This document shows, in pieces, positions 76-59,484 of a stretch of DNA of 64,000 nt; position 1 is the stretch's first letter; the number at the start of each line of letters is the position of its first letter. Source of the stretch: Hexactinellida sp. DTS-2022 (Eukaryota; Porifera; Hexactinellida); contig JAPNXP010000001.1 in the NCBI GenBank assembly GCA_028753945.1, positions 14,312,501-14,376,500 of the forward strand, written 5' to 3'. Both the position numbers and the translations under genes were made by a program. Below the pieces are notes generated by a model, which made no database searches, had not been told where the DNA came from, and worked only from the letters and a program-made list of their open reading frames with translations.

Positions 76-95
76 GAAAATCTTTAATCAGAAAT

Positions 96-936: not shown

Positions 937-944
937 ACCTCCAT

Positions 945-3627: not shown

Positions 3628-3650
3628 GTGAGTTATTATTGAGTTGAGTA

Positions 3651-4173: not shown

Positions 4174-4175
4174 TA

Positions 4176-5341: not shown

Positions 5342-5596
5342 TATTCCCGTATTGATTAATTCTACTATCGAATGTATGTAAACAACATGTTGATTCATGT
5401 TTTAATAAATTTAACTAAGAGCTAAATATAAAATTAAAGTTAAGTAAATAACCAAACAAGTGGAGATCATAATATAATGGTCATCCTTTCAAAGTTCTAA
5501 TCTGGTAGATTATAGCTATAACTAGTTCCGCAGGTATTATTAAATATCAAATTGGCCAAGAGCTAAACGACCCTCCCTTAGAATAATTATACTCTC

Positions 5597-6560: not shown

Positions 6561-6614
6561 CAGGTACAGAGCTACCAATTCTGAGTCCGGGAACATCTGT
6601 CAACTACGATTCTA

Positions 6615-9161: not shown

Positions 9162-12100
9162 ATGGCAAAAGCACGCATTCAAGAAATGAAATATATGAAT
9201 GAGTTGGCAAAATCGTTGACACATGAAAATATTCGCACTCTACAAGAAATACTGGGTATTCCGTCAGCAATAATCGAACAAACTGGAACGAAACCGATCG
9301 ATTTCCTAAATTCGCTAAAATTCAAATTCGGTGCTTTTGATTTGCATAAATTTATCGAAGCGTTACAAACCATAGAAAGACCCGACCTAATTCCGCTAGC
9401 AAGCAATATAAGTTGGAACAAAACTAGCGATGTCCATCGAAGCGGAAACACGGAAGATCCCCAATCAGCTAAATCACTGGTAAATTTGCTAAGAAGTGAG
9501 GTAGAATCTACTCAGTGGAAAATTATAGTGAGCACTGGACTGGGCAAAGATGTTTCAACGGAAATAGAATTCGATACAGCCTTCCAACTGTGCATTGAAG
9601 GAGGGTTAATTAGCACGAATATGGAAGACTTATGCGAGGCCATGGAAGCTGTAGATCGTAATGATCTAGCGACTAAAATTAAAACATATTCACCAATTTT
9701 CAAGAATATGAATGAAACCGAATTTCAAAGCAAAATGATGGAGGAATCACAATCCAATGAAATTGAGGATAAGGAAGACTGGGTAAAGAGATTGAGAGAG
9801 TATACCATCCAGCAAAATGTAAATGTGTACATACACTTTGATGATGAGGAGAGCACCAAATTGGAATCCGTCTATACACCTCTAACCATTGTGGAAGAGG
9901 AAATAATGAGAGTTAAGGAAAATGAAGAGACCAGCCTAAACGAAATTGCATTCCTAAGGTCGATGAACCAAAAAGATAAGGCTTTGAAAGTGGTTGATTT
10001 CATTGCCATTATTTCCCAGCATGACCCAACTGATCCCAAAGTATTTTGTCTGATAGGGAATCCTGGTTCTGGCAAAACATTCCTGTGCAAATACCTAGCC
10101 CTCCAGTATGGAAATGGCACCCACACTAATTTCAGTTACGTCATATCGATACAGTGTCGCAGTGAGGAGTGGCACGGCATGGAGAAAACGAGACAAGATG
10201 CCGAGACGGAAATCGACCAAGAATTCATCCAAAAATGGTTTTCATATGCAATGCCAATGGGCATTAAATGGTCGAAATCCCTAGCGAAACATCTGACCAA
10301 GACAGGAGGAGAAGGTCTCTTACTAATCATTGATGGGGTGGACGAATTCATCAAGGATGTTCCATTCAAAACGACACTGCTGTACTTCCTGCTGCAGAAA
10401 CGTGTCCTTAACCGCGCAACGCTACTTGTGACCAGCAGGCCCGGTGCATGGAATGACATCAGAGAGGAACACGGTCAGGCCTTGTGCGTGGACTCCAGCT
10501 TCCAGGTGCTGGGGTTCTCTCCCCCAGACAGAGACAGCTACTTTGAGAAGAGGATTAGCACGGTTGATAAACTGAGAGACACAAAGGAGCTGTTCTTCCG
10601 ACACGATGAAATTAATCAGTTGTCACTAGTGCCAGTTAACGCTAGTCTCTTCTCGTCGCTATTCAACGCCACAAACAACATTCTATCTCAGACACTGACA
10701 CAGCTCTACTCCGCACTGATTGTGTACATAATAAGGCGGCAATTGCATCGCATGGGACTGAAGCGATTAACGCGGGTAGAGCGCATGGAACAGTTCCATC
10801 CATCCATCCATCCTAGCCTGCATAGACTGCATAGGAAAGGAAGCCTACGAAGGCATATTCCACAGGGAGCTCAGCTGCAGAGAAGAGGATGTGTCGATTC
10901 GCGTAGACTCCCGAGACTACAAGACTGAGCGACTAGGCATTATGCAGGTACAAGTGAAGGTTCTAAAGCTAGGCCAGAAAGTGAATGTTTGGACCTTTGC
11001 TCACTTGACACTGCAAGAGTACATTGCTGCAGTGCATCTTAGCAACAAGACATGGACAGTGGAATGCATAATAGTTCGATTCATCGTGAGTAGTGAGGAG
11101 GTGTTCGCAATGTATAGGATGGTAGTGAGGTTCCTATGCGGTCTGCTATCGGATAGAGCTGCCTGTCTCATGCCCATTATCTGTTGCAATATTATACCAG
11201 ATACAATGCCACTAATCGGTATACCTATGGTACATCAACTCGGGTACTTAGACAATATCATCGATGTCTCTGACTGGAGTCAATTTACTCAGGTATATCT
11301 ACTCATTTGTACACTAATAGTAGAAACTAACTCTCGCTCAATGAAAGAGTATTTCGAATATTTTATTAAACTGTTGCCAGAACATGTGCACTTCACTTTC
11401 GATAAATCCATCGCACCAAATGAATTCCATTGTTTTCTGCAGTCACTGAATTACTTTTGTCAAATAGAAATATTATACATAGACACATCTCTAATTAATC
11501 CTAACCAGTTCAGTCTACTACTGCATCAGCTCTCCTCCTGCAGCCTACACTACCTAGCCATTGCATTCTATGGAACAGATACAGATCCGATCCAATCTTA
11601 TACGAGCCTCCTATTCTCTGCTGATACACCAATTAACTATAAGATCAGTATTAGCCTCTTTAAGTGTGATCTAACAGAGAGTCTGCATTCCAATCCTCTC
11701 TTCCTAACAACAAGCAATACATTGACTGGAAGCATTAGGTTATACGAATCCGCAATATCCAATGAAAAGCTGACACATTTGACCAATCAGTTTGCTAGCA
11801 TTGAAAATCTATTCTATTTCCCCAATTCAGATGATTCTAATTGGTCTATTCTGCTTCCATTGATATCCAACAACAGAGCTATTAAGGGGCTGACCATATC
11901 GGATCCTGAATCATACCTGCCAGAGACAACAGACATACTATCAGGCCTCTCCTTCCTAGAAGAGTTACGCTGGCGCAATAAGGATCCCTACGCTGTCCTA
12001 CCTAACCTACAGACTAACAACAGTCTCAGTTATCTATCGCTAATAGCACCTGATAAGCCTCCTCTTAGGAAGAATTACCAAGACCTTCTCGTAAACCTAA

Positions 12101-12579
12101 TTGCTAATAATACCACTTCATTGAGGGAAATACGCTTATATTATTTACCATCAGTCGGATTCAACAGCTGTACCAGCATCTTATCTCCAATTCAGTCCTG
12201 TTGTAATCTGGTATCTCTAGAGCTACTTGATATTCCATTCACCTCAGATGATATCAGCTGCTGGGACACTGCTATCCCCTATCTTCAGTCTCTTGTGGAA
12301 TTGAGTCTCATTGGTATCCCCTTGCAGGACACAGGACTAATGGAACTGTGCAAGAGTCTGTATAAACACCCAGCTATTCGTAGCTTACAGATCTACGTTT
12401 GCGGACTAACTTCCGACTCGTGTGAGCCTATTTTCATGCTTATTTCCACACTCCCGTATCTACGCCTACTGCAGTTATACAAGTCTGAGCTCTCTCTCCC
12501 CGATCCCAGCCCGCTACAGCTACTCCGGCAAACAGCAGAGCTATTCTCTGTTGAAGTGAAACTGATGGGAGATACCTAA
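9162..12579 (+). pseudogene. NLR immune receptor, copy A, frameshifted
   Basis: This is a NOD-like receptor with N-terminal death-fold-like region, NACHT ATPase, winged-helix region and LRRs. I start at 9162 rather than 9141: the seven upstream codons overlap a splice acceptor (AG at 9154-9155), and 9162 aligns with copy B's start. Walker A GNPGSGKT, Walker B LLLIIDGVDEF and sensor LLVTSRPG are intact. At 10797-10812 there are four CATC units where copy B has three (39986-39997). The 4-base gain shifts the frame and ends it at 10928. The rest continues in another frame (from about 10813) to 12579 without further breaks. The N-terminal third is only about 60% identical to copy B, the NACHT about 95%. 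The break looks recent, because downstream coding sequence is otherwise clean. Sequencing error in the repeat is possible. Confidence 0.88.
10797..10812 (+). repeat. (CATC)4 slippage tract causing the frameshift
   Basis: Four tandem CATC units here correspond to three in copy B at 39986-39997. The gain of one unit changes phase in the NLR reading frame, typical of polymerase slippage. Confidence 0.95.
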
Positions 12580-23199: not shown

Positions 23200-24888
23200 G
23201 AACCCTGGTTTATGCGCCGCCACATTACCCCCCTCCTGGAGGACGCCTTCAGCATTCTACTTAACCCAAGACGTATTTGAGACGATGGGCCGCCTTGATT
23301 TGAATATACACGGCCAACCTTGTCCAATTCTATCCCTCCACGCCTCACCGCGCCGTCCTCGATGCCTTCCTTTGCTATTCCCGGAGAAGAAACTGGCACT
23401 CCAACTGCTGTGCGGCCTCCTACAATTTAACTATGCGACGGACGGGCACAAGGTATATCACCTGGGCAGCTGTGGGATTCCAATGGGCCTCCCTCTCGCC
23501 CCAGAACCGGCACTGCTAGTCACCTGCCTCCTGCTACGCACCTTCAGACCACCGCCCCTCGGCGTATTCACTATTTATTTCGACGATTTGGCGGCCGTCT
23601 TCCCTCTAACACCGGAGCACCTCACCCAACTGCCAGCCTGTACATGACGGAGGACAACCGAACACAGGACGCGGAGTACCTCCCAGACAGGAAAGCATGG
23701 ATTCCGCGTGTACAGCCGCACCGGCCTCCTCTACCCGTCGATGCAGCCTCCTTTCAAGTCTCCCGCCACCTTATAGAGAATGCTCACATGGGGACAGCTC
23801 ATCGCATCGATGGGATTGCGACCTACCCGGCGGATGCCCTGAACCATTTACTACAACATTATCTGGGACCGCTTGTGGATCGCGGGAAAACAGCATACAC
23901 CATCATTCCAGCCTTGGTGGAGATCTGTTATTTCCCTGTCCCTAAGGAGCCCTAGAAGATACACAAACCCGTACCCACACTATACTACAAATTTAGCACA
24001 CGCAGGCCCACCTACAAAAGCATCTCCAAGTGCACAAAGCCAGAATATCGACCTGTTCCTGAACGCGTCCGCAGCCACCTCCTCCTACCCATTTACACAT
24101 CCACGTACCGCTCGACCCCGACCCCGACCTCTGCGGCACCACCCCTACTAGGACCTCGACCTCGAATCACACGGCTACCCGACACATGTGGGCACCCTCA
24201 CCGGACCCAGACGACACCGACAACGACTCATCCGAAAATTCAAGCTGAAAGGTTGTATGGAAATGCCTTCCCTGAAAGCCCTCAGAGATTACACGAAGCC
24301 GTTCCCGAGGGGGGCCCCGGCTGCACCACCAGCCCAGCCGCCTATCCCGAGAGGCAACCCATACCCGACGCTGATTCAACGTCGCTTCGCCGCGGCCCAG
24401 TACAATCTTGCCCTCCCCGACTAGTGCAGATTTGCCCAGTGTACCACGCGGCCAGGTCCTACCCCTCCTCCTCCTACACCGAGACTCCCCCTCCGCCGCC
24501 CTGTCTCTTGGGCTCCAACTACAGGGAATTTATTCCTGTACGGCTCATGACACCCGTCACACCCTGTACATACCTCAAATATTGCTACTATTGACATGGG
24601 AGCAGCCACGCGATCCAAGCAACCTACGCACTTCTACGTGGGCAAAGCTAACAATTTGGGAGGCAAGCTCACCGATCTGAAATTTCGACACTGATCATTC
24701 GTGATCTCTCGCGAAATCTCCTCTACTGGCAAATCCTGGCCCTCTATCCAGCAAACTATCAACTCGAGGCCGGCCAGGTGGATGCCCTTGTTATACGATG
24801 GATCGATAAGCTTCTCCGACACTATCTTGAAGGCCACTGTTATAATTTCCAGGAATTAAATCAATTCTATAGACAGGCGAAGCACTAG
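23200..24888 (+). pseudogene. Penelope-like reverse transcriptase, unit A (broken)
   Basis: The RT palm shows FNYATDG then GSCGIPMGLPLAPE and, about 30 residues later, FTIYFDDLAA. GxPMGxPLAP followed by a [YF]xDD box is the layout of Penelope-like RTs, with FDD here instead of YxDD. After a shift near 23640, the thumb-like part continues (HRIDGIATYPADALNHLL then PLVDRGKT), followed by a stop at 23955. The C-terminal part (near 24640-24888) has FYVGKANNLGGKLTDL, which faintly resembles a GIY-YIG-type strand but is not convincing. Several shifts make it non-functional. Confidence 0.6.
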
Positions 24889-28826: not shown

Positions 28827-29208
28827 CATCGGAGATTAGATAATACTCTTATTAATTGGTTTATAGGATAATTCCAGTTTGGTTCAGGGTTCCATTCAGT
28901 TTGAATTTGGGTCTATATTTTGATAATTTAAACGTTGATAGTTATACAGTTTGAATTTATTCAACTCCTTTGGTAGGGCAGTGTATAGGAGATATGTAGC
29001 AAAAGGAAGCTCGCAGACAATGTGAATCAAATTCAATAATTTATTAAAATGCATGAAGTACTTATGTGTCGGATGAATAATTAACGTCTGTTCAAATATA
29101 AACTATTTTATGCATCGCCCAATCAGATTAAGGCTATTTCACTTCATATTTTTAATGGATCTGAGACTGAAATTTCATTGGTTGTGGATCTGTTAGAACG
29201 TATAGGCT

Positions 29209-29218
29209 TATATAAAAA
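29209..29218 (+). promoter_or_regulatory. TATA box of NLR promoter module 2, unit B
   Basis: TATATAAAAA, with donor GTGAGT at 29336. It is the counterpart of 66-75, 9.1 kb upstream of the intact NLR. Confidence 0.55.
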
Positions 29219-29238
29219 GGAAATCTTTAATCAGAAAT

Positions 29239-29335
29239 ATAAACGATTATTATTTGTGTTGTTTAAACAGAATATCCCATAGAATCTATTCTATAGATTC
29301 ATTTCGAATATCAACATTTCAGAGAAACAGATCAA
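29239..29335 (+). other. Putative non-coding first exon, unit B
   Basis: It is bounded by the inferred start and the donor ATCAA|GTGAGT. The counterpart in unit A is 96-192. Confidence 0.4.
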
Positions 29336-29656
29336 GTGAGTTTCAATTATAGTTGCTAAATTGACATACGTATATGTATACAAACTCTTCCATCAGAGTG
29401 CCAAACCATATTAAATTCGGTTCTAACGTACCCCTTCTGCAAAAGAAAATTGGTTACAACTTACAAGATTGTAACTACTTACACTACATTGAAATAAGCA
29501 CATATTATGTGGCAGCACATCTTGTGCGGGACGTGCGGAAAGCTCTGTACTACTTTTTAAAAGAGAAACTTCTAAGTTTCGGCATAGAGTCATCTGATTA
29601 GCGAGAAAATCTTATCATAGAATCGGTTGTGTATTGTGGCCGCCATGTTACCTCCA

Positions 29657-31766
29657 TACAGGTCGAAAAATCAATTAATTCCTATTTACAGTTTGGTAGT
29701 AAAATGAGTCACCCTATATAATGAGTCAAATTCGGCTAGCGAGTGTGACAATTCTATCCATAGAGAGAGACAATACCAAAGTTACGAATTTTGACAAAAT
29801 TATCAATGGCTTTGAGGTTATGAATTCAAGAAAACTTTTTTATATAAATGTAAAATGTATTAAAAAGTAGTATTATTATCATATTATCTCACGCCTGGGT
29901 AAGGGGGAGGAATTTTGTTTTTATTATTATGAACATAACTATAAACTTGTGTAAAGTACTCCTAATATAGCAAATTTTAATTAATCTTGTATTTAGGGCA
30001 TTACTATCATTATTTTGGCATTGGCATGTGATTTTATATTTAATTTAATTATTAATATTTATTGTTTGGCATAGGATAATGTTATTTGCATATTAATGGA
30101 AATAAAAATAAATTCCCGTCCGCCATCCGTATTTCTAAAGAAATCCGGATGATAAACAATTAATTTATTTTACCTGGCCTTAGTATTACAATCTGTATCA
30201 GCTCTGTGGCACAGTTCAATGTGCCACGTGCTACGCTACTTATAATGCATAACTTGTGAATAAGTATGCAGATACAGCCATAGCTCTTAGTGTATACTGA
30301 GTATAAGAATACTTAGATTAATAGTAGTCATAAAATACTAATCGCTAATTCAACTGTAACAACAAACTCAAACAATAATAACAATTCAATAACACTGCTT
30401 GAAACGATCTACTACATTAGAAGTGAGATTTGTATACGAACTGTGCACAATGTGAGTTAAATATGTAGATATTATTGTCAGTTTTAAGTTAACAAGCCTA
30501 TTTCCTGGCTGTAGTTTGATTAAACTATTTGTAGTTCCCTTGATATAATCATTTCCGTACCTTTTCCTTCTTCAAACTTGAAAATATATTTTAATGAATC
30601 AATTATGATCAACTTGTAATGTTTTGCTGTTCAGCTTAATTGGGTCATTTTTCGCTGTAGCAGAATTATAGTTAAAAGGATAGTAGTAAATGGGAAGAAA
30701 TTTCAGGTTTTTACATAATTCAAACTTTGCTTTAGTACATACATACATCAAAGTTTGGTTATTCGTGTCCATATTTGGTTACTCTAGGGATATATATATA
30801 TTATATAAATTTGTTATTTTGTATTATGTAATTCAATCTAAGATTCTGTAAATTCACGGTAATTGTGTCAAAGTACTTACTCAAATATATGGATGTATCA
30901 CTCGTTTATTGAATATTATTGCTCACAAGATAGCATATTTCGGTTTACTGGTCGCTTCACCGCACTACTACCTCTGAATTAACTATAGATATAGTTATCA
31001 TTCGAGCTACCATATAATTACATGCTGTAGAAGAACGTAACTTGTAATACATTGAATGAGCTCACCAAAGTGTAGTACACTAAATAATTATTGACATCGA
31101 TACACCGTTGGTATCAAATTATTCTACGTAATGAACTTTGCAATTCCAGAATGTTCTTAGACAATTATTTCAACTTAGGGTTCATTAATTTATTCTCAAT
31201 GAACTATATCTTCTTACAGAGACTAGTACAAACAACTCCAGTAGAGTCTATAACATGCTTTTGAATTATAGCTATTCTAATTACTGCATTCCTATGAACC
31301 ACATCGTCACTTAGATTATATTTTCCTAATTGCATTAGACTAATGGATAAACAAGTGTATTTAAATTTAGTATCATTGAGAAATATAATTTAGGCGAACA
31401 CTTCCAAAGACTATTTAATGTAAATTAATCCACTCCATTAAATTATGAAACAATCTCAACACTTTTTGTCTTCTGTTATTTTTATGTTTATTGACATCAT
31501 CTATGCATTTAATTTATGTCGCATTATTGAATGCTGATTTTCAAAGTTGTAAATTGATTGAACATCACTTATGTCACGGGCATTAATTATACAAAACTAT
31601 AGAACAGAATTACAATTGAGAGTATATTCCTGTAATATGAAATAACTGCATTATTTACAAAGATTAATTTTTCTTTAAGAATTGATTTTATAGATGAACA
31701 CTTGACTATTAATTTGTGTCAGCTAATTATTATTAACATTATATTATTGCTTGTATCTATTTGTAG
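29657..31766. other. AT-rich intron-like DNA, unit B
   Basis: It aligns with 945-3167. No gene is supported. A donor-like GTGAGT at 30452 matches 1916 of unit A. Confidence 0.55.
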
Positions 31767-31865
31767 AATAAAAGAATCAATCAATAACCGAGAATCGAGA
31801 ATCAATTCATTCCAAATAACGCAGAACTAACAATTGACTGCTGTGAAGTATTATCTGAATACAAA
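31767..31865 (+). other. Putative non-coding exon, unit B
   Basis: Ninety-nine bases between acceptor TTGTAG and donor GTGAGT, same length as 3168-3266 in unit A. Confidence 0.4.
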
Positions 31866-32166
31866 GTGAGTTAGTATTTGCATTAGCTTCGGTCTCGTTG
31901 GCTTGCTACGGGTCATTCAATTGCTACATGTAGTGTCGCTTTGTTGACAATTTGTTAATAGACTCTAAAATAACGTTATTGATATTTCGGCAAATTTGGT
32001 GCCGTACAAATGTTAAGTAACTTAAAGTCATACGAATATTTACACCCCCTTCTTATTCATGCTTTACTATTTTGTAAACAAAAGTATTATATTACACACA
32101 TTAGTCAACTCCATCCCCTTTGAAAAGGTTTATTGATATTTAACTTTCTATCGCATTATTTTGTAG

Positions 32167-32226
32167 AATCGACTCAATCAAATACTAACAAACTCCGAGA
32201 CGAACACACCACACATTCTGTATCAA
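32167..32226 (+). other. Putative non-coding exon, unit B
   Basis: Sixty bases between acceptor TTTGTAG and donor GTGAGT, same length as 3568-3627 in unit A. Confidence 0.4.
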
Positions 32227-32249
32227 GTGAGTTATTATTGAGTTGAGTA

Positions 32250-32973
32250 CAGTGGATACCGGTTACCGAATATAACAACCAATGAGCATTTTAATATTCG
32301 TTTGAATTGACAAGATTCCGGATTTAAGAACATTCGATTTTTGGAACATTTTAGCAGTGATGCAATTCGATTTCTTTGAATAGAATCTCTTTAGCTTTGT
32401 TCCTAGTTTATTTATAACCGATAATGAGACAGTAAAGCTTTTTCGCCTGTGTTAGTCAAACAGTCGAATGTTACTGTATTGTAGATCAGGGGTTTATCTA
32501 GGATTTTCGTGGCAGGCACTTTATTATGTAGGTATAAATTTCCGTCACCCTAAATGTATTAGCCATAATACATAATCAGTATAATTCAATGATGCGGCAC
32601 TATTTTAAGGAGGTAATTGCAACGGTGCACAAACAGTTGATTATCCAAGCATTTCTGGACCAGAAAATCTGGTGCCATACATCATTTCTGGACCAGAAAA
32701 TCTGGTGCCATACATGTGCCATTCATCCGGCACATAATTAAGTGCCTACCCGGCACCTAAATCGAATCGCAATTCACGAACTTTTTCACCACAACTGATG
32801 CCTGGCTAAAAGTGCCGGCCATGCACCTAGATAAAGCCCTGTTGTAGATCCATATACTATGTTCATAAATACTGATTAACATTACGTAGTATAGAATACT
32901 ATACTGTTTACAAGAACATATTGGTTATAAGAATATATCTGTGATAATATTTTCTCTAAACCGGTATCCACTG
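32250..32973. mobile_element. Tigger/pogo-like MITE with nested hAT, unit B
   Basis: It has the same CAGTGGATACCGGTT ends and TA flanks as 3651-4173. It carries an inserted hAT element at 32487-32841 and lacks about 160 bp of internal sequence present in unit A. Confidence 0.75.
32487..32841. mobile_element. hAT-type MITE, unit B only
   Basis: Ends CAGGGGTTTATCTAGG and, complemented, CAGGGCTTTATCTAGG are flanked by a perfect 8-bp TTGTAGAT at 32479-32486 and 32842-32849. An internal tandem duplication of TTTCTGGACCAGAAAATCTG occurs near 32651-32705. Unit A lacks it near 4045. Confidence 0.9.
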
Positions 32974-33980
32974 TATTGTGTAGTTTGTGAATTAATTATA
33001 CCTGCCAACCCTACAGCATATACGCTATTTGACCAGGGATTTAGTTATTTTAAACAATCTGTGTTTGAATTTCACGCTCCTGAAATTAGTTGTATACACT
33101 AACCCGGCAAAAAGTATTTGAACTACAATAATTTAAATAAAACTATACTTTGGTATAATAAAATAGCAAAATATATGAATTTATATTTCTATGGAGGTGT
33201 TACACTCATTAACTAATAATGATCTAATTAAATATATAATTTCTGATCATTTTGAGGCAATTGAATTATACCTGTAATTCTGATTTCAGATTTGAATACC
33301 ACATTGTCGAATTGCTATAGGTACAGAATTTCTAATCCATGCCATAATTTTCCACTGAGCTACAGCCCATTCCCTAATGTGCCACTTGTGCCCAAAGTGT
33401 CACGTGCTAGTGACACTAATGCCACTTCATGAATATTGAATATAAATGACTTAAAATCACAATTTTCTGAAATGTATAATTAGTGTAAGATATTTAATTA
33501 AAGACATGTAAATAATAAGGACTTGTTTAAACAGAGTTAATGCGAAACAAGAAATTTGTGTCTGGAATAAAATTCCTATGTTTTAAATACTTTTGTCCGG
33601 TTAGTGTACATATCGCTTCGTGCAAGTAAACTTTCCAGCAATCCCTGGACATGTTCCACCATAGAAACATAATTGAAAGATATTCTTCAAATTAATCACA
33701 TTCCTAAACACATTCATTATGTGATCACTAATAATGACATCGAGCCTGTATTGCAAGCAAGCGAAATTTCAATTCCTCGAGCCATAAGAAATGTGTCCAG
33801 GGAATTCTTGGCATCCATTGATTTGTCTTGACTATGTTGGCAGGTATTATATTTTATACATGTATTTCCAAAGTTAATATCTTTGCTAACTAATGATAGC
33901 AATTATTGCATTTTCCTGCGAATTTTAACAGTTACAATGGGATCAAATTTAGCTAAACTGTGTGCCATTAATATTTAATA

Positions 33981-34127
33981 CATTAGAACTCGGTTATAAC
34001 GTATCTTCGGGAATAGTACTAACCGAGTTTACGCTCATAGAAATAAAAATGTTGTTTGGATAAAATAGTAGTAAATACTAAGGCAAAGTAGGTACTAATC
34101 CAGGCACGTTATATCCGAGTTCTACTG
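33981..34127. mobile_element. Short Tigger-like MITE, unit B
   Basis: Counterpart of 5194-5341, with the same AGAACTCGGTTATAACG ends and TA flanks. Confidence 0.7.
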
Positions 34128-34349
34128 TATACCCGTATTGATTAATTCTGCTATCGAATGTATGTAAACAACATGTTGATTCAAGATTTAACATATTTAA
34201 CTAAGAGCTAAATTTACAGTTAAACTAAACAAGTAGAGAAAATTATCTAACACTCATTCTAACAAAATACTAATGGAGTGGATAGCTATAACTAGTTCCG
34301 CACATATTAATATATTTCAAATTGAGCAAGAGCTAAACGACGCTCCCTT

Positions 34350-35310
34350 GAATAATTATACTCTCTTAGTCTCTATTTCTGAGGGGAGGCCTCCTATCCC
34401 TATTGTATCTCCTCTGGTATAGTCTGTCTGCATGGCTTCCTATTCGGTATGTTCCTCTTAGCAATTCCGTTTCAACACTTATTAAAGTGAGCAACCTTGC
34501 TTCCTTTCATTAATCTGGATCCTACGTTAGCACCCAATCGCTCTTTGATAGGATAATGCCATCGAAACAGGATTCTTCTGACCGATGTTCATTTTTCAAA
34601 ACAACTGTGACTCTTAACTGTACATCTTTAATTGTTTCAATCCTGGAATTTGGAGTTGTGAGATTGGAATTAGCCTTTCTATTCACTGGGAATCGCGAAT
34701 AGTTGACTTCTTGCAGTAGTATAACCTCAGTATCATAGTTCGGACCAGGCAAGTAAGCCACGCAATGAAATAAAACTAGTTATCAGATCGAACAGTGTGC
34801 TGTTGTTTACCTTTTTAATGCACTCTGCATTTGGTGTAGTACCAAAGGGAAATATCAACGTTATCCGAATGCATTCACATGTCATCTAAATAGGGATGGC
34901 AATCTCATCTCCACTTAAATCTTCATCCTTGAGCCTCGTGTATATCGCGTGTCTGCTACAAAGACATAATGCCACACTGCTCTCGTTGCCAGAAAAGAAT
35001 CTTTAAGTTGAATACGTCAAGTTTGAAGAAAAGGACAGGTCCGTATAATATTCACAGTCTTTTGAGTTCGGCATAAGCACGCATCTTCTGTGATGAATCG
35101 CGGTCCATAGCCATTCCCTCCGAGCGCTCTGATTCACTGGATGAGAACTCTTGGTGTAGAATCCATGTTTCCTCATTAATGTGATGGCTGGTGTATTTTT
35201 GTTCTCAGCGAATAGCCAGCAATATTCACCCGAAGGTTCGCATATTCGGCTAGCTCGGTATTAACTTGAAGTTTAAATCCTAATTCGCAGATTGTGTTGT
35301 ATTTAGTTAC
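34350..35310 (-). pseudogene. Degenerate retroelement-like relic, unit B
   Basis: Paralogue of 5597-6560 with the same peptide remnants (LPGPNYDTEV, NRKANSNLTTPNSRIETI). Additional small deletions fall in both copies at different places, so neither is functional. Confidence 0.35.
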
Positions 35311-35775
35311 AGATAGTCCAGGATAGCGGTGTTCCTCCAAAGTAAGAAAGAAACCCATTTCTCTCGGTGTCTATCTCTCCCAGTTCTCCATCAATAGCTC
35401 TCCTGCTGAAGCAGGCAACAAGGAATTGGTTTGCTTTTTTTTATACCCAATTCCTTTTCATAGATATAGCTTTTCATAGATTTGCTGGCCACTGCCTGGG
35501 AAAAGACTTTTCCATTCTTCTATACTAATTCCTTCTGTGTGTAGGAATTATTGATGCAACACACATCAATGTTCTTTCCTAGAAATACTACTTAGTAGCA
35601 TAACATTTCGGATAGTCGTGGTAGTTAATCATGCTGCTATGCTTTACAGGAAAATAATGTAATAGTCAATTGCTCATCTAAAAAAAGTAATAAATTATTG
35701 CTTATTAGTCTAGTGCATAAAGATAAAACAAGTAACTAATAGCATAATCTAGCATCCTTTGTGATAACTTATTAC
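35303..35775 (-). mobile_element. Probable 3' LTR of a Gypsy element, unit B
   Basis: On the minus strand a purine run GGAGGGGAGGG is followed by TGTAATAAGTTATC, the usual polypurine tract to LTR junction, just after integrase sequence. The LTR holds a TATA-like GGGTATAAAAAAAAG near 35440. The far end is placed where homology to unit A resumes. I found no matching 5' LTR. Confidence 0.45.
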
Positions 35776-35779
35776 AACC

Positions 35780-36420
35780 CTCCCCTCCACGTTGTTGGAC
35801 GATCTAATCTGACTGGACTGATCAAAAGGCTTGCTTGTTCTGTTGGACCGACGCAAGGGTTGCGTCAGCTCTTCCATTTGAATCTCCCCTCACCGGTTCT
35901 CCATTGGGTCAGGATTTGGTTATACGAATTTATGTGGGGTGGAAACAGTCCAACGAGAGTCCTTCTTGTATTCCTTGAAACTGTAGATGATCTATAGAGG
36001 GCGTACCATCACCCATTCTTTAACATAACATATAATCACTGGAAAACCCATCTGTCGTGTACAAGACTAGCGAACAAATTTGTATGACGAGAAATATCCC
36101 AAAATTATATTCAACCCCTTCCTTTTGACCACTTGATTCGTACCCGAGAGAAGCTTAAAAGTAACTTGAGCTTCCTGTCCATCATGAGCACCGCGTTTGA
36201 TATCCCTGTCGCACTGTGAGGCTTAGTACTGTAGTTAAAGTAAATTTGGAAACCATTGTCTCTATAGAACCTGTGTTTGTTTTCTTAATGGCCTCTATGA
36301 ATGTTGTACTAACTTTTAACTTGGCCGTTAGAAGAGGGGTGATATTGCGCTGCCCGCTTTTCCAAATGCCGTTTCGCTCGGTAATGTCGCAAATACTGTG
36401 CTTGTAAATTCTTTCCCATT
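35780..36420 (-). pseudogene. Gypsy integrase core and C-terminus, unit B
   Basis: Minus-strand translation near 36360-36110, allowing shifts, reads PSSNGQ, then EAIKKTNTGSIETMVSKF, then YSTKPHSATGIS and LMMDRKLKLLL. This is the distal DDE-core and post-core pattern of Mag-like Gypsy integrases. It continues to about 35780, where the polypurine tract lies. Stops interrupt all frames. Confidence 0.75.
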
Positions 36421-36535
36421 ATCCACATTAAATTATTCGGAAGCACATGAGTGGAATAATTATCCGAAACTTCTCAACTGGCGAGTGTGTGGTTGCTGAG
36501 GTCACTACTGCACTTCCATGCATTAAAATTCGTAT

Positions 36536-36745
36536 CTACGTACTACTTACTACTAATCGTACATTTTCTATTTGAGTATTAATCATGCATCCGAGTCCAT
36601 GTGTACAGGGCAGTTCCCAAGGGTGTAAGGGAACCTTTGGCGGTGAATGTCTGGAGGCTGTCATATTTGACATCCTTGAGATACCTGGATGGCTTTCATG
36701 AAGTATGTATGTCACTACGGCTTCGCGTCCTATTGAAGGCACCAC
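36536..36745 (-). pseudogene. Gypsy integrase zinc-binding domain, unit B
   Basis: The frame contains ILHESHPGISRMSNM, the HHCC-type finger that precedes Gypsy integrase cores, on the same strand as and upstream of the core fragment at 36110-36360. Confidence 0.8.
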
Positions 36746-37289
36746 TATCTTGTTGTCCCAGAGGAAACAGCCATGTTGTACGGTTAATTTACCACTTCTA
36801 GTTATACATTCGGACGGAAAATACCATTCCTCGGACCAAATAGTCCGCCCCTATAATAACTCTGGTAGTTTGTTGGATAATACTTGATGTCGATCAGTCG
36901 ATTTTTGCTCCGAATGCAAATGGGACAATCTAATATACTCCATCATCAAAATTAGTTCATTCGGTAAGGAAACAAAATTTGATGCTTCGTATATGTGTGG
37001 ACGGCTCTAAAAATCTATTGTCCATTTAATTCCTTCTTTTGAACTGATCCGGTAACTGTGCGCTCCAAATAATAGTGCCCACCTTGTAATCTTGCCGACG
37101 CCTTCTGTTTCGACGCCTTACTATAATCAGCTTGTGAAAGGGCTGTCCTAGAGAAGTGATCAAACTTTCTACATGCAAGTTTGGGTGTTAATGGTAGCTA
37201 ATAAATATGCATGATCTTGTTCAAGTTTGGAAAGTAAATCGTTGATAAGGGGAAAACGCTTGTATAGACTTGTGCATACCGGTTAACCA

Positions 37290-37593
37290 TCACCTTATAG
37301 CCCCACAAACTCGTATTGACCAGTCACATTTCACAATCGGAACAATTGGTGCTGCCCAGTCGGAATAATATACCCGTTCTATAACTCCTTGAGTTACTAG
37401 TCGTTCATGTTCACTTCCACCTTTTCTGAATCGAAAGTTGTAGTGTTCTTGCATCGTAGTACTTTTGGAAAAGCTGTCGATATAATGGTAATAGTCGCAT
37501 TGCCACCTGTCGTACAAACGGATTCTTTTTAAATAATGTCCCAGAAGTTCCTGGAGTTAATCTATTATACGAACCTGGCAGAGATCTGTCCAA
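37290..37593 (-). pseudogene. Gypsy RT N-terminal fragment, unit B
   Basis: The frame contains ERLVTQGVIERVYYSDWAAP then IVPIVKCDWSIRVCG, matching the highly conserved start of Mag-lineage Gypsy RT. The RT catalytic core and RNase H that should follow are missing: only about 550 bp separate this from the integrase finger, so an internal deletion occurred. Confidence 0.85.
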
Positions 37594-38345
37594 CGCAGTT
37601 TGATAGCAAATCTGAGATAAAAGAACTTTAGAGACTCCTGAGTTTATGTTCCCTCCTCCTGTCTGTTGGACTCTTCATGAATTGGATTGCATACGTTTCG
37701 AATATCAAGTGGCAATTAGTGTTGCGTTGCTTAATGGGTGTATTACCGCATGGTTTGATGCATCAAAGTCTGTAGTAAGTTAGTACAGTTAGTATCTCGT
37801 GACTGTGAGTCAGTGGGATTGGAAATAATATGTGTATTAAGCTAGGCAATAGTTAACTAAACAACCGACTAATCAATAATCATATATAACTAATGTCATA
37901 CAAGTATATCAATCATATTACCTAAGAGCATGTATAGTGTGATAACACGACTGTATAGTCATCCAAGTGCGTGTTGTCCGCGGCCACCGGGATCCATAGA
38001 CCCCCGATTGGTGCTCCACTCATTAATTCGGAAGAATGCCCAGATCAAATATAGGTAAAGTGAACTGTAGTATAAATAGACAATATTACTAAATACGTAC
38101 TTATTTTCAATCTTTACCGGATTGGCATAGCATGCGTTGTGTATCGAGGAGTGTAAACATATTATGACTGTTATTAATTAATTTAAATAACGAAATCAAA
38201 ATATAATAATGTGAGAAATATTGTTGTTTAAAAGCGCGATTTATTCAAGTTCCTCTTAAGCGTCACGTCCCAATAAATGGCGCACATTTATAGATACATA
38301 TTCAATTAGGGGAGACATTTGTATTCCAATATCTCTTATTTATAG
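37594..38345. other. Non-coding DNA upstream of NLR copy B
   Basis: No gene is seen. It does not resemble the corresponding DNA of unit A. It ends in an acceptor-like CTCTTATTTATAG (AG at 38344-38345), five bases before the NLR start codon. Confidence 0.45.
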
Positions 38346-38350
38346 TTAAA

Positions 38351-41300
38351 ATGGAGAAAGTGAATATTGCGGAAATTAAGTCTATGAACGAACTTGCAAA
38401 AACGCTAACGCCAGAGAATGTCCGCACGTTGCAAGACATACTCGGGATTCCGTCCGGAATTGTGGAACGAACTAAAACCAATCCATACGATTTCATTAAT
38501 TCGTTGAAATTCAGATTCGGGGCTTTGGATCCCAAAAGATTCCACAAAGCGCTAGAAACCATAGGGAGATCCGACCTTATACCAATAGCCAATAAGATCG
38601 ACAGGCTCAACATCACCTTCGCAGGGCCTACATCCAAAAGGGATAGCTCCCCTTCAGTAGAATCATTCGTGACCTTACTCAGAAATGAAATGACCATTGA
38701 CCAATGGAAAATGATATTAGGCGGTGGAACGTCGCAAGAGGTTTCGACAGAAATAGAATTCGATTCAGCATTTAAGTTGTGCATTGAAGGAGGTTTGATC
38801 AGCCAAAATATGGAAAGTTTAAGCGAAATGATGCAAGCTGTAGATCGTGAGGATCTAGCTAAAGAGATGAGAAAGTATTCACCAATATTTACGAATATGA
38901 ATGAATCCGATTTCCAAAGCAAAATGATAGTAGAATTGCAATCCAACGAAACAAAGGATCAAGAAGACTGGGTAAAGAGACTGAGAGAGTATACCATCCA
39001 GCAAAATGCAAATGTGTACATACACTTTGATGATGAGGAGAGCACCACATTAGAATCCGTCTATACACCACTAACCATTGTGGAAGAGGAAATAATGAGA
39101 GTTAAGGAAAATGAAGAGACCAGCCTAAACGAAATAGCATTCCTAAGGTCGATGAACCAAAAAGATAAGGCATTAAAAGTAGTTGATTTCATTGACATTA
39201 TATCCCAGCGTGATCCGACTAAACCCAAAGTATTTTGTCTGATAGGGAATCCTGGTTCTGGAAAAACATTCCTATGCAAATACCTAGCCCTCCAGTATGG
39301 AAATGGCACACACACTAATTTCAGTTTCGTCATATCGATACAGTGTCGCAGTGAGGAGTGGCACGGCATGGAGAAAACGAGACAAGACGCTGAGAAAGTT
39401 ATCGACGAAGAATTCATCCAAGAATGGTTTTCCCATGCACTGCCAATGGGCATTAAATGGTCGAAATCCCTAGCGAAACATCTGACAAAGACAGGAGGAG
39501 AAGGTCTCCTAATAATCATTGACGGGGTGGACGAATTCATCAAGGATGTTCCATTCAAAACGACACTGCTGTACTTCCTGCTGCAGAAACGTGTGCTTAA
39601 CCGCGCAACGCTACTCGTGACCAGCAGGCCCGGTGCGTGGAATGACATCAGAGAGGAACACGGTCAGGCCTTGAGCGTGGACTCCAGCTTCCAGGTGCTG
39701 GGGTTCTCTCCCCAAGACAGAGACAGCTACTTTGAGAAGAGGATTAGCACGGTTGATAAACTGAGAGACACAAAGGAGCTGTTCTTCCGACACGATGAAA
39801 TCAATCAGTTGTCTCTAGTGCCAGTTAACGCTAGTCTCTTCTCGTCGCTATTCAACGCCACAAACAACATTCTATCTCAGACACTGACACAGCTCTACTC
39901 CGCACTGATTGTGTACATAATAAGGCGGCAATTGCATCGCATGGGACTGAAGCGACTAACGCGGGTAGAGCACATGGCACAATTCCATCCATCCATCCTA
40001 GCCTGCATAGACTGCATAGGAAAGGAAGCCTACGAAGGCATATTCCACAGGGAGCTCAGCTGCAGAGAAGAGGATGTGTCGATTCGCGTAGACTCCCGAG
40101 ACCACAAAACTGAGCGACTAGGCATTATGCAGGTACAAGTGAAGGTTCTAAAGCTAGGCCAGAAAGTGAATGTTTGGACCTTTGCACACTTGACACTGCA
40201 AGAATACATTGCTGCAGTGCACCTTAGCAACAAGACATGGACAGTAGAATGCATAATAGTTCGATTCATCGTGAGTAGTGAGGAGGTGTTCGCAATGTAT
40301 AGGATGGTAGTGAGGTTCTTATGCGGTCTGCTATCGGATAGAGCTGCCTGTCTCATGCCTATTATCTGCGGGAATATTATACCAGATACAATGCCACTAA
40401 TCGGTATGCCTATGATCCATCAACTCAGATACTTAAGTAATATCATCGATGTCTCTGACTGGATTCAATTTACTCAGGTCTATCTACTCATTTGCACACT
40501 AATTGTGGAAACCAACTCTCGCTCAATGAAAGAGTATTTTGAATGTTTCATTAAATTGTTGGCAGAACATGTGAACTTCATTTTCGATAAATCTATAGCA
40601 CCAAACGAATTCCATTGTTTTCTGCTATCACTGAATTACTTCTTCCAAATAGAAATCCTATATATTTCGACATATTTAATTAATCCTAACCAGTTCAGTC
40701 TACTACTGCATCAGCTCTCCTCCTGCAGCCTACACTACCTAGCCATTGCATTCTATGGAACAGATACAGAGCCAATCCAATCGTATACGACCCTCCTATT
40801 CTCTGCTGATACACCAATTAACTATAAGATCAGTATTAGCCTCAGAGACTGTGATCTAACAGAGAGTTTGCATTCCAATCCTCTCTTCCTAACAACAAGC
40901 AATACATTGACTGGAAGCATTAGGCTATCCCAATCCGCAATATCCAATGAAATGCTGATACATTTGACCAATCAGTTTGCTAGCTTTGAGAATCTATTCT
41001 ATGTGCCCAAATCAGATGATTCTGATTGGTCTATTCTGCTGCCACTGATATCCAACAACAGAGCTATTAAGGGGCTGTCCATAAGGGATCCTAAATCATA
41101 CCTGCCAGAGACAACAGACATACTATCAGGCCTCTCCTCCCTGGAAGAGTTATTCTTGTTCAATAAGGATCCCTACGCTGCCCTACCTAACCTACAGACT
41201 AACTACAGTCTCAGTTCTCTATCGCTAATAGCATCTGATGTGCCTCCTCTTAGGGAGAATTACCAAGACTTCCTCATTAACCTCATTGCTAATAATACTA

Positions 41301-41752
41301 CTTCATTGAGGGAAATAAGCCTAAATTGTTTACCATCAGTCGGATTGAACAGCTGTACCAGCATCTTATCCCCAATCCAATCCTGTTGTAATCTGGTATC
41401 ACTAACGCTAGCTGCTATTCCATTCACCTCAGATGATATCAGCTGCTGGGACACTGCTATCCCCTATCTTCAGTCTCTTGTGGAATTGCGTCTCGTATCT
41501 ATCCCCTTGCAGGACACAGGACTAATGGAACTGTGCAAGAGTCTGTATAAACACCCAGCTATTCGTAGCTTGAGGATCCATAATTGCAAACTAACTTCCG
41601 ACTCGTGTGAGCCTATTTTCATGCTTATCCACACACTCCCGTATCTACGCCGACTGACGCTATACAAGCCTGAGCTCTCTCTCCCCGATCCCAGCCCGCT
41701 ACAGCTACTCCAGCAAACAGCAGAGCTATTCTCTGTTAAAGTGCAACTGTGA
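38351..41752 (+). CDS. NOD-like receptor with NACHT and LRRs, copy B (intact)
   Basis: A 1133-residue cytosolic innate immune receptor in one exon. Residues 1-90 and about 100-178 each resemble a death-fold (DED-like) unit; ETIGRSDLIPIA and QAVDREDLAKEM match the end of such domains. NACHT runs about 285-460: Walker A GNPGSGKT 299-306, Walker B LLIIIDGVDEF 386-396, sensor LLVTSRPG 421-428. A winged-helix-like region follows (TLTQLYSALI, then FAHLTLQEYIAAVHL at 611-625). RNase-inhibitor-type LRRs fill about 760-1115, without a transmembrane segment. NACHT proteins oligomerise on ligand binding, and death-fold ends recruit signalling partners. The start follows a splice acceptor, implying upstream 5' UTR exons. 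Differences from copy A concentrate on LRR strand positions. Ligand and partners unknown. Confidence 0.93.
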   Translation: MEKVNIAEIKSMNELAKTLTPENVRTLQDILGIPSGIVERTKTNPYDFINSLKFRFGALDPKRFHKALETIGRSDLIPIANKIDRLNITFAGPTSKRDSSPSVESFVTLLRNEMTIDQWKMILGGGTSQEVSTEIEFDSAFKLCIEGGLISQNMESLSEMMQAVDREDLAKEMRKYSPIFTNMNESDFQSKMIVELQSNETKDQEDWVKRLREYTIQQNANVYIHFDDEESTTLESVYTPLTIVEEEIMRVKENEETSLNEIAFLRSMNQKDKALKVVDFIDIISQRDPTKPKVFCLIGNPGSGKTFLCKYLALQYGNGTHTNFSFVISIQCRSEEWHGMEKTRQDAEKVIDEEFIQEWFSHALPMGIKWSKSLAKHLTKTGGEGLLIIIDGVDEFIKDVPFKTTLLYFLLQKRVLNRATLLVTSRPGAWNDIREEHGQALSVDSSFQVLGFSPQDRDSYFEKRISTVDKLRDTKELFFRHDEINQLSLVPVNASLFSSLFNATNNILSQTLTQLYSALIVYIIRRQLHRMGLKRLTRVEHMAQFHPSILACIDCIGKEAYEGIFHRELSCREEDVSIRVDSRDHKTERLGIMQVQVKVLKLGQKVNVWTFAHLTLQEYIAAVHLSNKTWTVECIIVRFIVSSEEVFAMYRMVVRFLCGLLSDRAACLMPIICGNIIPDTMPLIGMPMIHQLRYLSNIIDVSDWIQFTQVYLLICTLIVETNSRSMKEYFECFIKLLAEHVNFIFDKSIAPNEFHCFLLSLNYFFQIEILYISTYLINPNQFSLLLHQLSSCSLHYLAIAFYGTDTEPIQSYTTLLFSADTPINYKISISLRDCDLTESLHSNPLFLTTSNTLTGSIRLSQSAISNEMLIHLTNQFASFENLFYVPKSDDSDWSILLPLISNNRAIKGLSIRDPKSYLPETTDILSGLSSLEELFLFNKDPYAALPNLQTNYSLSSLSLIASDVPPLRENYQDFLINLIANNTTSLREISLNCLPSVGLNSCTSILSPIQSCCNLVSLTLAAIPFTSDDISCWDTAIPYLQSLVELRLVSIPLQDTGLMELCKSLYKHPAIRSLRIHNCKLTSDSCEPIFMLIHTLPYLRRLTLYKPELSLPDPSPLQLLQQTAELFSVKVQL

Positions 41753-55505: not shown

Positions 55506-56665
<1,160 letters not shown>

Positions 56666-57191: not shown

Positions 57192-57503
57192 GTGGCCCTC
57201 GTCATACAATGCTCCGGTGTAGAAATCGGCCCTCGTGATGACCGCTGCCCTAAACTATACTTCAATATCAAGTGTCACAAATACCAATTCCAACAGCTAT
57301 TAGTACCTACGGACGCCCCCCACATCTTTTGGGTGCCGCAGCCACCACAGCCGACTAGACCAACACCTGGCACCAACCTCCACCTGTTAACCTCCCTAGT
57401 GAGACCGATCGTAAATCACTCGCATAGCCTGACAGCACTATGCTCGTTGTATCTGCGCCGCCACATTACCCCCCCCCCCCCCTGGAGGATGCCTTCTACT
57501 TAA
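57192..57503 (+). pseudogene. N-terminal part of the Penelope-like ORF, unit B
   Basis: The open frame extends upstream to about 56960 (includes LLNDLRTRLRQGNLVFPPP). From the ATG at 57192 it reads KLYFNIKCHKYQFQQLLVPT and SLVRPIVNHSHSLTALCS. It leads into RRHIT, also present in unit A, then loses frame in a C14 homopolymer. No known motif; presumably the RT N-terminal domain. Confidence 0.5.
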
Positions 57504-58492
57504 TCCAAGACGTATTTGAGACGCTTGACCGCATTGATTTGAATATACACGACCGACCTTGTCCAATTATATCCCTCCACGCCTCACCGCGCCGTCCTCG
57601 ATCCCTTCCTTTACTATTCCCGGAGGAGAAACTGGCATTCCAACTGCTGTGCGACCTCCTGCAATTTAACTATGCGACGGACGGGCACAAGGTATATCAC
57701 TTGGGCAGCTGTGGGATTCCGATGGGCCTCCCTCTCGCCCCTGAACTGGCACGGCTCGTCACCTGCTTCCTGCTACGCACCTTCAGACCACCGCCCCTCG
57801 GCGTATTCACTATTTATTTCGACGATTTGGCGGCCAACCTCCCTCTAACACCGGCGCACCTCACCCCGCTGCACAGCCTATACATGGTCACCCTGACGGA
57901 GGGCAACCGAACACAGGACGCGGAGTACCTCCCAGACAGGAAGGCATGGATTCCACATGTACAGCCGCACCGGCCTCCTCTACCCGTCGATGCAGCCTCC
58001 TTTCTTGTCTCCCGCCACCATATAGAGAATGCTCACATGGGGACAGCTCATCGCATCGCTCGGATTGCGACCTACCCGGTGGATGCCCTAAACCATTTAC
58101 TACAACATTATTTGGGACCGCTTGTGGATCGCGGGAAAACAGCAAACACCATCAATCCAGCTTTGGTGGAGATCTGTTATTTCCCTATCCCTAAGGAGCC
58201 CTGGAAGATACACAAACCCGTACCCACACTATACTACAAATTTAGCACACGCAGGCCCACCTACAAAAGCCTCTCCAAGTGCACAAAGCCAGAATATCGA
58301 CCTGTTCCTGAACGCGTCCGCAGTCACCTCTTCCTTCCCATTTACACATCCACGTACCGCTCTACGAGGACCCCGACCTCTGCTGCACCACCCCTACTAG
58401 GACCTCGAATTACACGGATACCCGACACACCTATCGATGTGGGCACCCTCAGCGGACCAAGACGACACCGACACGACTCATTCGCAAATTAA
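57440..58492 (+). pseudogene. Penelope-like reverse transcriptase core, unit B
   Basis: A 350-residue frame carries fingers/palm (EEKLAFQLLCDLLQFNYATD), then LGSCGIPMGLPLAPELARLV and FTIYFDDLAANLPLTP. It continues through a thumb-like RIARIATYPVDALNHLL and PLVDRGKTANTINPAL. G-x-PMG-x-PLAP plus FDD is the RT catalytic layout; Penelope-like elements share the LLxLLxxNxxxxG context before it. Its first codons read through the C14 run in a different frame from the N-terminus, so the true start lies upstream. No GIY-YIG endonuclease is certain downstream. Confidence 0.65.
57469..57482 (+). repeat. C14 homopolymer splitting the RT frame
   Basis: Fourteen Cs occupy the place where unit A has six (23225-23230). 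The change shifts the Penelope-like frame. Homopolymer length is also a common assembly error. Confidence 0.9.
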
Positions 58493-59484
58493 AGCTGAAA
58501 GGTGTGATGGAGATGCCGCCCCTGAAAGCCCTCAGAGCTTACACGAAGCCATTCCCAAGGGTGCACCACCACCACCACCACCAGCCCCGCCTATCCCGAG
58601 AGGCAATCCATATCCGACGCTGACGCAACGGCTTCGCCGCGGCCCAGTTCAATATTTCCCTCCCCGACTACGTGCAGAGGAGCCCAGTGTACCACGCGGC
58701 CAGGACCCCTCCTCCTCCTACACCGAGACTCCCCCTCCGCCGCCCTGTCTCTTGGGCTCCAACTACAGGGAATTTAATCCTGCACGGCTCACGACACCCG
58801 TCATACCCTGTAGCTGTACATACCTCAAATGTTGCTACTATTTACATGGAAGCAGCCACGCGATCCAAGCAACCGACGCACTTCTACGTGGGCAAAGCTA
58901 ACCATTTGGGAGGCAAGCTCACCGATCTGAGATTTCGACACGGATCATTCGTGACACCGCGAAATCTACTCTACTGGCAATTCCTGGCCCTCTATCCAGC
59001 AAACTATCAACTCGAGGCCGGCCGGGTGGCAGTGGCGTAGGGAGGGGGGGTTCTGGGCGTCCTAGGACCCCCCCAATCTGTCAGACTTATTTGTTTTCAT
59101 TAGCAATAAAAAAACAGAGGACTACTCAGGTTTCAAAAGTACCTCAAAAAAACATACATAGGGTCTACTTAATAGTACTTGATTACTGTCTGTTAATTAT
59201 CATGTTTATTATTCTATAATAAACATCTGCAATAGAGTTTCCCGTACCGCAATCGGTCTTTTGTTAAAGTAATTTTAAAAAATCGCTCGGGCGATGCCCC
59301 CAGACCCCGTTACTGGCTCACTTCACTTGCTCAGGACCCCTCCAATCCAAAACCCTGGCTATGCCCCTGCCGGGTGGATGCCCTTGTTATACGATGGATC
59401 GATAAGCTTCTCCGACACTATCCTCAAGGCCACTGTTATAATTTCCAGGAATTAAATCAATTCTATAGAAAGGCGAAGCACTAG
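58493..59484 (+). pseudogene. C-terminal region of the Penelope-like ORF, unit B
   Basis: Shifted frames encode a Pro-rich stretch (near 58560-58780), then FYVGKANHLGGKLTDLRF and LLYWQFLALYPANYQL. After the hAT insertion comes WIDKLLRHYPQGHCYNFQEL before the stop. Same order as unit A. Function of this tail is unknown. Confidence 0.5.
59030..59369. mobile_element. hAT-type MITE interrupting the Penelope-like ORF
   Basis: The 340-bp element has ends CAGTGGCGTAG and, complemented, CAGGGGCATAG and a perfect 8-bp duplication CCGGGTGG (59022-59029, 59370-59377). Unit A near 24775 has the uninterrupted site. Termini resemble those of the 92-bp MITE at 53816. Confidence 0.93.

Follow-up and report, generated by a model that had tools for sequence, protein, structure and literature searches.

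A 64,000-nucleotide stretch of a glass sponge genome (Hexactinellida sp. DTS-2022; assembly GCA_028753945.1, contig JAPNXP010000001.1, bases 14,312,501-14,376,500; hereafter the window) contains two NLR genes with NACHT domains, copy A and copy B (Table 1), and raises the question of what makes such copies differ mainly where the strands of their leucine-rich repeats (LRRs) would face a ligand. A first-pass annotation, made from the letters of the window alone, had offered two answers, diversifying selection or short templated exchange among paralogues. Very probably, the two copies belong to a genome-wide family of single-exon NLR genes in which the LRR strand face is under diversifying selection and the scaffold and NACHT core are held, in which duplication and exchange mix the variants, and in which the promoter and the N-terminal module form a separable unit.

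As a description, the pairwise comparison behind that annotation is accurate. Between A and B, the final 205 codons show 33 replacements and 11 silent changes, stacked in the LRR strands, and the strand-by-strand list of exchanged residues matches the sequence exactly. The remark that many replaced codons differ at two or three bases is right for two-base changes (15 of 33) and wrong for three-base changes (0 of 33), which were found upstream, at codons 773 and 832. Multi-base codons do not serve as an argument for selection or exchange and were dropped as such: for the 36 codons that vary most, the shares with one, two and three differing bases (0.54/0.39/0.07) lie between those of selection-only simulations without rate variation (0.62/0.34/0.05, taken over every codon in the high-omega class) and those that include it (about 0.44-0.48/0.40-0.41/0.11-0.15). 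Copy A, moreover, is not intact; a four-base insertion in a short repeat inside the helical domain, missing from the 13 other close copies, breaks its frame. The four-base tandem repeat occupies the same coding place in the 14 close copies (window positions 10791-10810 in A and 39980-39998 in B), and its unit number differs in copy A only. Copy A is either a truncated receptor, a pseudogene or an assembly error.

A search for NACHT over the 112-Mb genome (18 contigs) gave at least 94 matches, 75 of which are enclosed by open frames of at least 1000 amino acids, indicating one-exon genes. The contig of the window carries 51 of the 94, all but one of these between 10.0 and 17.6 Mb, and copies A and B belong to an array of six NACHT genes that stand head to tail on a single strand, spaced by 29-48 kb and flanked by DNA that is also repeated (~88-96% identity). 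Sequence was examined for 54 loci, namely A, B and 52 from the genome, of which 43 were full-length (longest frame >900 amino acids); nine shorter ones were left out. Protein identity to B is 78-99.7% in 12 loci and copy A, giving 14 close copies including B. Site models were applied to 11 of these after removal of L014 (frameshift in the LRR) and of L023 and L037 (LRR nearly identical to that of B); divergence among the 11, which are spread over several contigs, is about 4-5% for the core and 7-11% for the LRR. Six further subfamilies comprise 29 full-length loci sharing roughly 35-60% of residues with B (loci of group G6 extend only to about codon 965), and two full-length loci, L008 and L039, fell in no group. 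B, L023 and L037, three of the six array genes, have practically one LRR face, so that the array holds fewer specificities than genes.

Codon models M0, M1a and M2a were fitted with our own implementation, which was validated on null simulations. For LRR codons 691-1133 of the 11 copies, twice the log-likelihood difference (2dlnL) of M2a over M1a was 303 with the LRR tree, 272 with three segment trees and 378 with a star tree, and 14-15% of the codons fell into a positively selected class with a dN/dS ratio (omega) of 5.9-6.5. The largest value in null simulations was 3.0 on one tree (18 runs) and 13.5 when tips were relabelled every 30 codons (20 runs). For core codons 206-690 the same comparison gave 3.9 (p 0.14), which is not significant. 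After removal of copy A and of L028, the longest branch, 2dlnL was still 276, with 27 of 42 strand x positions selected versus 8 of 357 codons elsewhere. Per-site dN/dS across the family, which had been named beforehand as the refuting test, thus lies far above 1 at the strand x positions.

The selected codons, 36 of which reach a posterior of 0.95 with the LRR tree, sit at defined places in the repeats. In a strand register placed by hand from the LxxLxL pattern, they make up 26 of the 42 codons at positions x5, x7 and x8 of 14 strands, versus 9 of 357 in the remainder of codons 735-1133 (Fisher 1.8e-22); the counts become 22 versus 10 when three trees are used, and 26 versus 11 under the star tree. 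With the LRR tree, all 14 strands have a selected codon at x7 (13 of them with three trees), and none of the 14 has one at L4 or at L6, the leucine-type positions. Shifting the register by one or two residues lowers the 26 matches to 6-18. When strands derived from the structure model replace the hand register, 24 of 97 strand residues are selected versus 11 of 302 others (6.9e-9); in the model-derived secondary structure only 3 of 150 helix residues are. The selected residues are the outward, alternating ones of each strand and not those of the hydrophobic core, so that the second refuting outcome named in the annotation, a model with the variable residues in that core, did not occur either. 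A concave, ligand-facing role for them, as the annotation had it, is predicted from homology and the model, whose repeat fold is RNase-inhibitor-like. Tyrosine is 3.6-fold enriched at the selected positions. Human RNase inhibitor contacts its ligands through Trp261 and Trp263. These two residues align (PDB 1a4y) with codons 1075 and 1077 of strand 13.

Counts that need no tree agree. The ratio of replacement to silent differences per site (pN/pS) reaches 2.22 for the x5/x7/x8 codons, as compared with 0.67 for the other residues of the strands, 0.39 for the remaining LRR and 0.17 for the core. Silent divergence is flat over the same classes, with pS of 0.145 (interval 0.085-0.219), 0.113, 0.119 and 0.134, and pN at the x positions is fourteen-fold above that of the core. 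A flat pS with a rising pN argues for selection, because a mutation hotspot or the import of divergent DNA would also raise pS. The pattern recurs outside the group of copy B: the LRR favours M2a in all six other subfamilies (p 6e-6 to 2e-25), selected codons are enriched at x5/x7/x8 in all six (p 0.0043 to 1e-10), and the core is not significant in five. Two further places are selected in more than one group and are no strand x positions in the hand-placed register, namely codon 1132, the penultimate residue (B's group and G2, G3 and G7, i.e. three of the six others), and codons 693-697, which precede the LRR (B's group, G5 and G6).

What such selection would serve can be proposed by analogy with the NLR family. 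The sponge genes combine a death-effector-like N-terminal module, a NACHT core and an RNase-inhibitor-type LRR. The LRR would be the sensor. Very probably, its solvent-facing strand residues are driven to change after duplication under a held leucine scaffold and NACHT core, and duplication in 29-48 kb units and segment exchange supply and mix the variants; one sensor-plus-NACHT body stands behind several old N-terminal types. The strand face may bind a foreign or self ligand, as homology and the model suggest; binding may release NACHT oligomerisation, upon which the N-terminal module might recruit death-fold partners and start a death-fold assembly. Pathogen sensing is taken as the default purpose. 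The same selection could instead act on self or symbiont identity (allorecognition). The genomic evidence is equal for both, and in fungi, NLRs whose ligand-facing repeats are hypervariable and whose N-termini vary act in non-self recognition, as described in part of one account (PMC4986451). However, nothing in the present data prefers allorecognition over pathogen sensing, and animal NLRs are generally described as microbe sensors; allorecognition therefore seems unlikely, though it deserves consideration.

Gene conversion alone, that is, short templated exchange without selection for change, might make the strand pattern, and exchange does occur in the family. Two-state sites shared among copies are commoner and more scrambled than in simulations on the tree or a star, run with or without rate variation: 79 sites with a fraction of 0.56 incompatible in the core (simulated maxima 57 and 0.42), and 95 with 0.53 in the LRR (69 and 0.43). 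Randomly shuffled columns give 0.57-0.60 in the core and 0.54-0.55 in the LRR, the observed ones being nearly as scrambled. Several copies are mosaics. Of the base differences that separate B from L037, 50 fall in codons 1-379 and 4 in codons 380-1133; L032 and L036 share a tract over codons 858-914, the sole significant shared run among 55 pairs; between A and L018, divergence is 0.5% upstream, 1.1% in the N-terminal part and 3.9% in the core; and between B and L036, which lie on different contigs, it is 0.9%, 3.1% and 4.3%. In a search for donors of the 55 codons of 735-1133 at which A and B carry different residues, the codon of B recurred in another of nine copies in 37 cases, that of A in 43, and neither in 1. 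Yet exchange carries silent and replacement changes alike, and the core shows as much silent divergence as the x positions and the LRR do, which means that exchange is not the source of the strand pattern; relabelling of tips without selection likewise stayed far below the observed 2dlnL. Gene conversion as the sole cause is thus very improbable. The annotation was right that templated exchange takes place among these paralogues and not that it could produce the strand pattern; the data support exchange as an addition to selection and no substitute for it. Overall, exchange is read as frequent but mostly old, with few recent events.

Diversifying selection also has to be set against an assembly artefact, in which near-identical or scrambled copies would stem from collapsed or misjoined haplotypes. 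B and L023 are indeed nearly identical, differing at 7 of 3399 coding bases and at none in 700 bases downstream, but they stand 34.7 kb apart in the tandem array. Together with the clear differences among the 11 modelled copies, which come from several contigs, this distance leaves the explanation hardly credible. A local mutator, i.e. hypermutation or targeted editing that hits strand codons, would suit changes that are so tightly focal and the A-richness of the selected codons at codon position 2 (0.44 versus 0.28). Silent divergence, however, is raised neither at x positions nor at other strand residues, the changes fall on codon positions 1 and 2 (0.52 and 0.51) and less on 3 (0.21), and the A-richness at position 2 comes from the residues chosen (Tyr, Lys, Asp and Gln); a mutator is extremely unlikely. 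Relaxed constraint, with a decaying or neutral LRR and copy A as a broken gene, can be practically dismissed: copy A is frameshifted and the LRR of L014 also broken, but relaxation cannot lift pN/pS over 1 at the x positions, the scaffold, helices and core are conserved, the selection result holds without copy A, and most NACHT matches retain frames of at least 1000 amino acids.

Diversifying selection on the strand face is accompanied by a second kind of variation at the other end of the gene. In the 11 copies, dS between N-terminal types exceeds 1.4 in every 50-codon block of codons 1-205 and is 0.06-0.16 within types; past codon 205, in the remaining 928 codons, the between-type value drops to the within-type level (0.09-0.35). 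The N-terminal types are much older than the remainder of the gene, and A and B, which differ in type, have a dS of about 1.5 over codons 1-205, a difference that the first-pass annotation does not mention. The division into types extends into the promoter: over 550 bases upstream, 22 of 22 same-type pairs align (median identity 90.6%) and 0 of 56 different-type pairs do. Window positions 7-6570 of the A unit align with 29150-35313 of the B unit, no alignment of at least 100 bases follows up to the gene, and the body aligns again, a pattern that a replacement of promoter and N-terminus within a duplicated unit would leave. Along the array the types run t1, t3, t2 (A), t1 (B), t1, t2. Among 45 full-length sequences, a module edge recurs near codon 200-225; in 110 pairs with the same core clade and different N-terminal clusters, identity is 0.36-0.62 before codon 200 and 0.83-0.95 after codon 225. 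N-terminal clusters 9 and 13 were each found with two core clades, which suggests that subfamilies have exchanged N-terminal modules; the loci concerned are L049 with L043/L045/L046, and L042 with L047. The promoter and first ~205 codons behave as a separate module of several old types in front of one shared, recently mixed body. As to its nature, 8 of 10 N-termini scanned give sub-threshold matches to the death-effector domain (DED), with a best E-value of 1.1e-7 (copy B 0.0012) and none over the Pfam cut-off. The structure model of the N-terminus is poor, with a predicted local distance difference test (pLDDT) score of 51, and a fold search with this model gave no match at E <=0.001, its first row being a viral tandem-DED protein (E 0.74).

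A number of observations weigh against the explanation as a whole. The A-B pair has a dN/dS of 0.90 in codons 851-985 and 0.86 in 986-1133; these values are below 1, so that the pair cannot carry the claim of selection and the family must. With the LRR tree, ten selected sites fall outside x5/x7/x8. Among the other subfamilies, a weak signal comes from the core of G3 (p 0.011), and no more than 4 sites are selected in G4. The examined sequences cover 54 of the 94 NACHT loci, and the LRR structure model has a modest mean pLDDT of 60.7 (two sequences). For exchange, a test of the pairwise homoplasy index (PHI) type was not significant in the core, the LRR or the body (603, 226 and 310 of 1000 permutations), showing no local excess of compatible sites, and a significant shared run was found in only 1 of 55 pairs, from which it follows that few tracts stem from recent exchange. 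Older exchange is argued from simulations, and these may miss some forms of mutation-rate variation. A wider interpretation is put forward tentatively, as somewhat short of probable: an animal without antibodies might possess a plant-like, germline-encoded, combinatorial receptor repertoire diversified in specificity and housed in intronless genes, in which a selected LRR face and a shared NACHT core would be joined to a swappable promoter-plus-effector module that sets the timing and the death-fold pathway for each specificity.

Copy B is the intact representative in the window. Its NACHT domain matches PF05729 at 68.6 bits (cut-off 26.7) over residues 294-466, a pre-NACHT FISNA match over residues 229-277 is weak (E 0.011; 16.4 bits versus a cut-off of 28.1), and leucine-rich repeats are present at the C-terminus. 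The structure model of the LRR, of modest confidence, finds NLRC4, NLRP3 and RNase inhibitor as fold matches. Among the 17 Pfam families listed for copy B up to E 1, there is no NB-ARC, no B30.2 or SPRY and no WD repeat; the protein ends within the last LRR strand region, and its C-terminus has the LRR fold.

Table 1. Features of the NLR genes in the window. Strand rows run from L4 to x8 of copy B and are based on the site models and the hand-placed register; codon numbers refer to copy B.
Feature	Window position	Strand	Description	Basis
Copy B	38351..41752	+	Single-exon NLR, intact, one open frame, 1133 amino acids	NACHT match; LRR match to RNase inhibitor and NLRP LRRs
Codons 1-205	38351..38965	+	Type t1 of the N-terminal module; death-effector-like, with probably two helical domains	DED match below cut-off
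Codons 206-690	38966..40420	+	Pre-NACHT, NACHT and helical domains; purifying selection; alike across N-terminal types	M0 omega 0.19
Codons 735-1133	40553..41749	+	LRR domain, 14 strands assigned	Model secondary structure, register, fold matches
Strand 1, codons 741-745	40571..40585	+	Selected 744	
Strand 2, codons 770-774	40658..40672	+	Selected 773	
Strand 3, codons 797-801	40739..40753	+	Selected 800, plus 802, 804 just after	
Strand 4, codons 829-833	40835..40849	+	Selected 832, 833	
Strand 5, codons 857-861	40919..40933	+	Selected 858, 860, 861 (single LRR tree)	
Strand 6, codons 882-886	40994..41008	+	Selected 885	
Strand 7, codons 909-913	41075..41089	+	Selected 912	
Strand 8, codons 934-938	41150..41164	+	Selected 935, 937	
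Strand 9, codons 957-961	41219..41233	+	Selected 958, 960, plus 962, 963 just after	
Strand 10, codons 989-993	41315..41329	+	Selected 992, 993	
Strand 11, codons 1018-1022	41402..41416	+	Selected 1019, 1021, 1022	
Strand 12, codons 1046-1050	41486..41500	+	Selected 1049, 1050	
Strand 13, codons 1074-1078	41570..41584	+	Selected 1075, 1077, 1078	
Strand 14, codons 1102-1106	41654..41668	+	Selected 1103, 1105	
Upstream stretch of copy B	35314..38350	+	Type-specific; no alignment of at least 100 bases to the copy A counterpart	
Copy A	9162..12579	+	Paralogue, N-terminal type t2, frameshifted near 10795-10810; open pieces 9162-10928 and 10780-12579	Codon comparison

Elsewhere in the window, an intronless actin-like coding sequence at 55506-56665 on the forward strand is split over two overlapping frames (55506-56093 and 55889-56665) and looks, for this reason, like a broken processed copy. 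A repeat pair about 90% alike (23213-24781 and 57454-59029) has long open stretches that, judged by eye only, resemble reverse-transcriptase-type coding remnants.

Plant NLRs are the textbook case of a hypervariable strand face under diversifying selection. RNase inhibitor is, to our knowledge, conserved and not under diversification of such a kind. The human inhibitor (PDB 1a4y) has the same LRR type and register as the present family, but is a single inhibitor with no NACHT domain. The nearest analogues are hypervariable plant NLRs (hvNLRs) such as RPP13 and the fungal HNWD receptors. In the portion of the literature consulted here (PMC8226289), the hypervariable residues of hvNLRs are exposed ones of LxxLxLxx strands on the concave face and overlap with positively selected sites, and recombination and conversion act among paralogues. 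The hvNLR trait, positively selected hypervariable residues on the concave LRR face, is present in the sponge as well, the face being judged from register and model. Unlike hvNLRs, the sponge genes have NACHT in place of the plant nucleotide-binding domain and a death-effector-like N-terminus, and they vary as paralogues within one genome instead of alleles across individuals. The fungal HNWD NLRs of Podospora anserina likewise combine one core with varied N-terminal domains, exchange within the family and diversifying selection at a few ligand-facing positions per repeat, according to the same partial account cited above for fungal non-self recognition (PMC4986451). HNWD genes, however, have WD repeats, and their exchange shuffles near-identical repeats, whereas the sponge LRRs differ from one another and keep their array position. 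Zebrafish NLR-B30.2 genes form a very large clustered family with domain-dependent conversion and N-terminal groups, but are multi-exon, and their positive selection lies in B30.2, which in the consulted part of the report the authors regard as the recognition module instead of the LRRs (PMC4852459); in the sponge, the LRR is the selected module and B30.2 is absent. Expanded NLR sets of other sponges, Dysidea avara among them, are large, include some N-terminal death domains and group by species; the consulted part of that report has no selection analysis, and its text contains the term 'positive selection' 0 times (PMC12909245). Among open-access titles and abstract openings, none was found that reports positively selected strand positions in the LRRs of invertebrate NLRs; the search leaves most subscription journals outside and does not prove that no such report exists. 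The usual picture of animal NLRs is one of sensors for rather invariant molecules, as the introduction of one paper puts it (PMC4986451). Against this background, the sponge family makes specific intracellular recognition in invertebrates a testable question, with the residues to be tested for binding now named, and offers a natural case in which the sensor, switch and output modules of an NLR are under three evolutionary regimes in one exon. The domains that define hvNLRs, HNWD and NLR-B30.2 proteins were each looked for and are absent, so that the family works like these systems and is a member of none; the strand-face solution of the plant type is seen here at high resolution in an animal LRR, in seven subfamilies of one genome.

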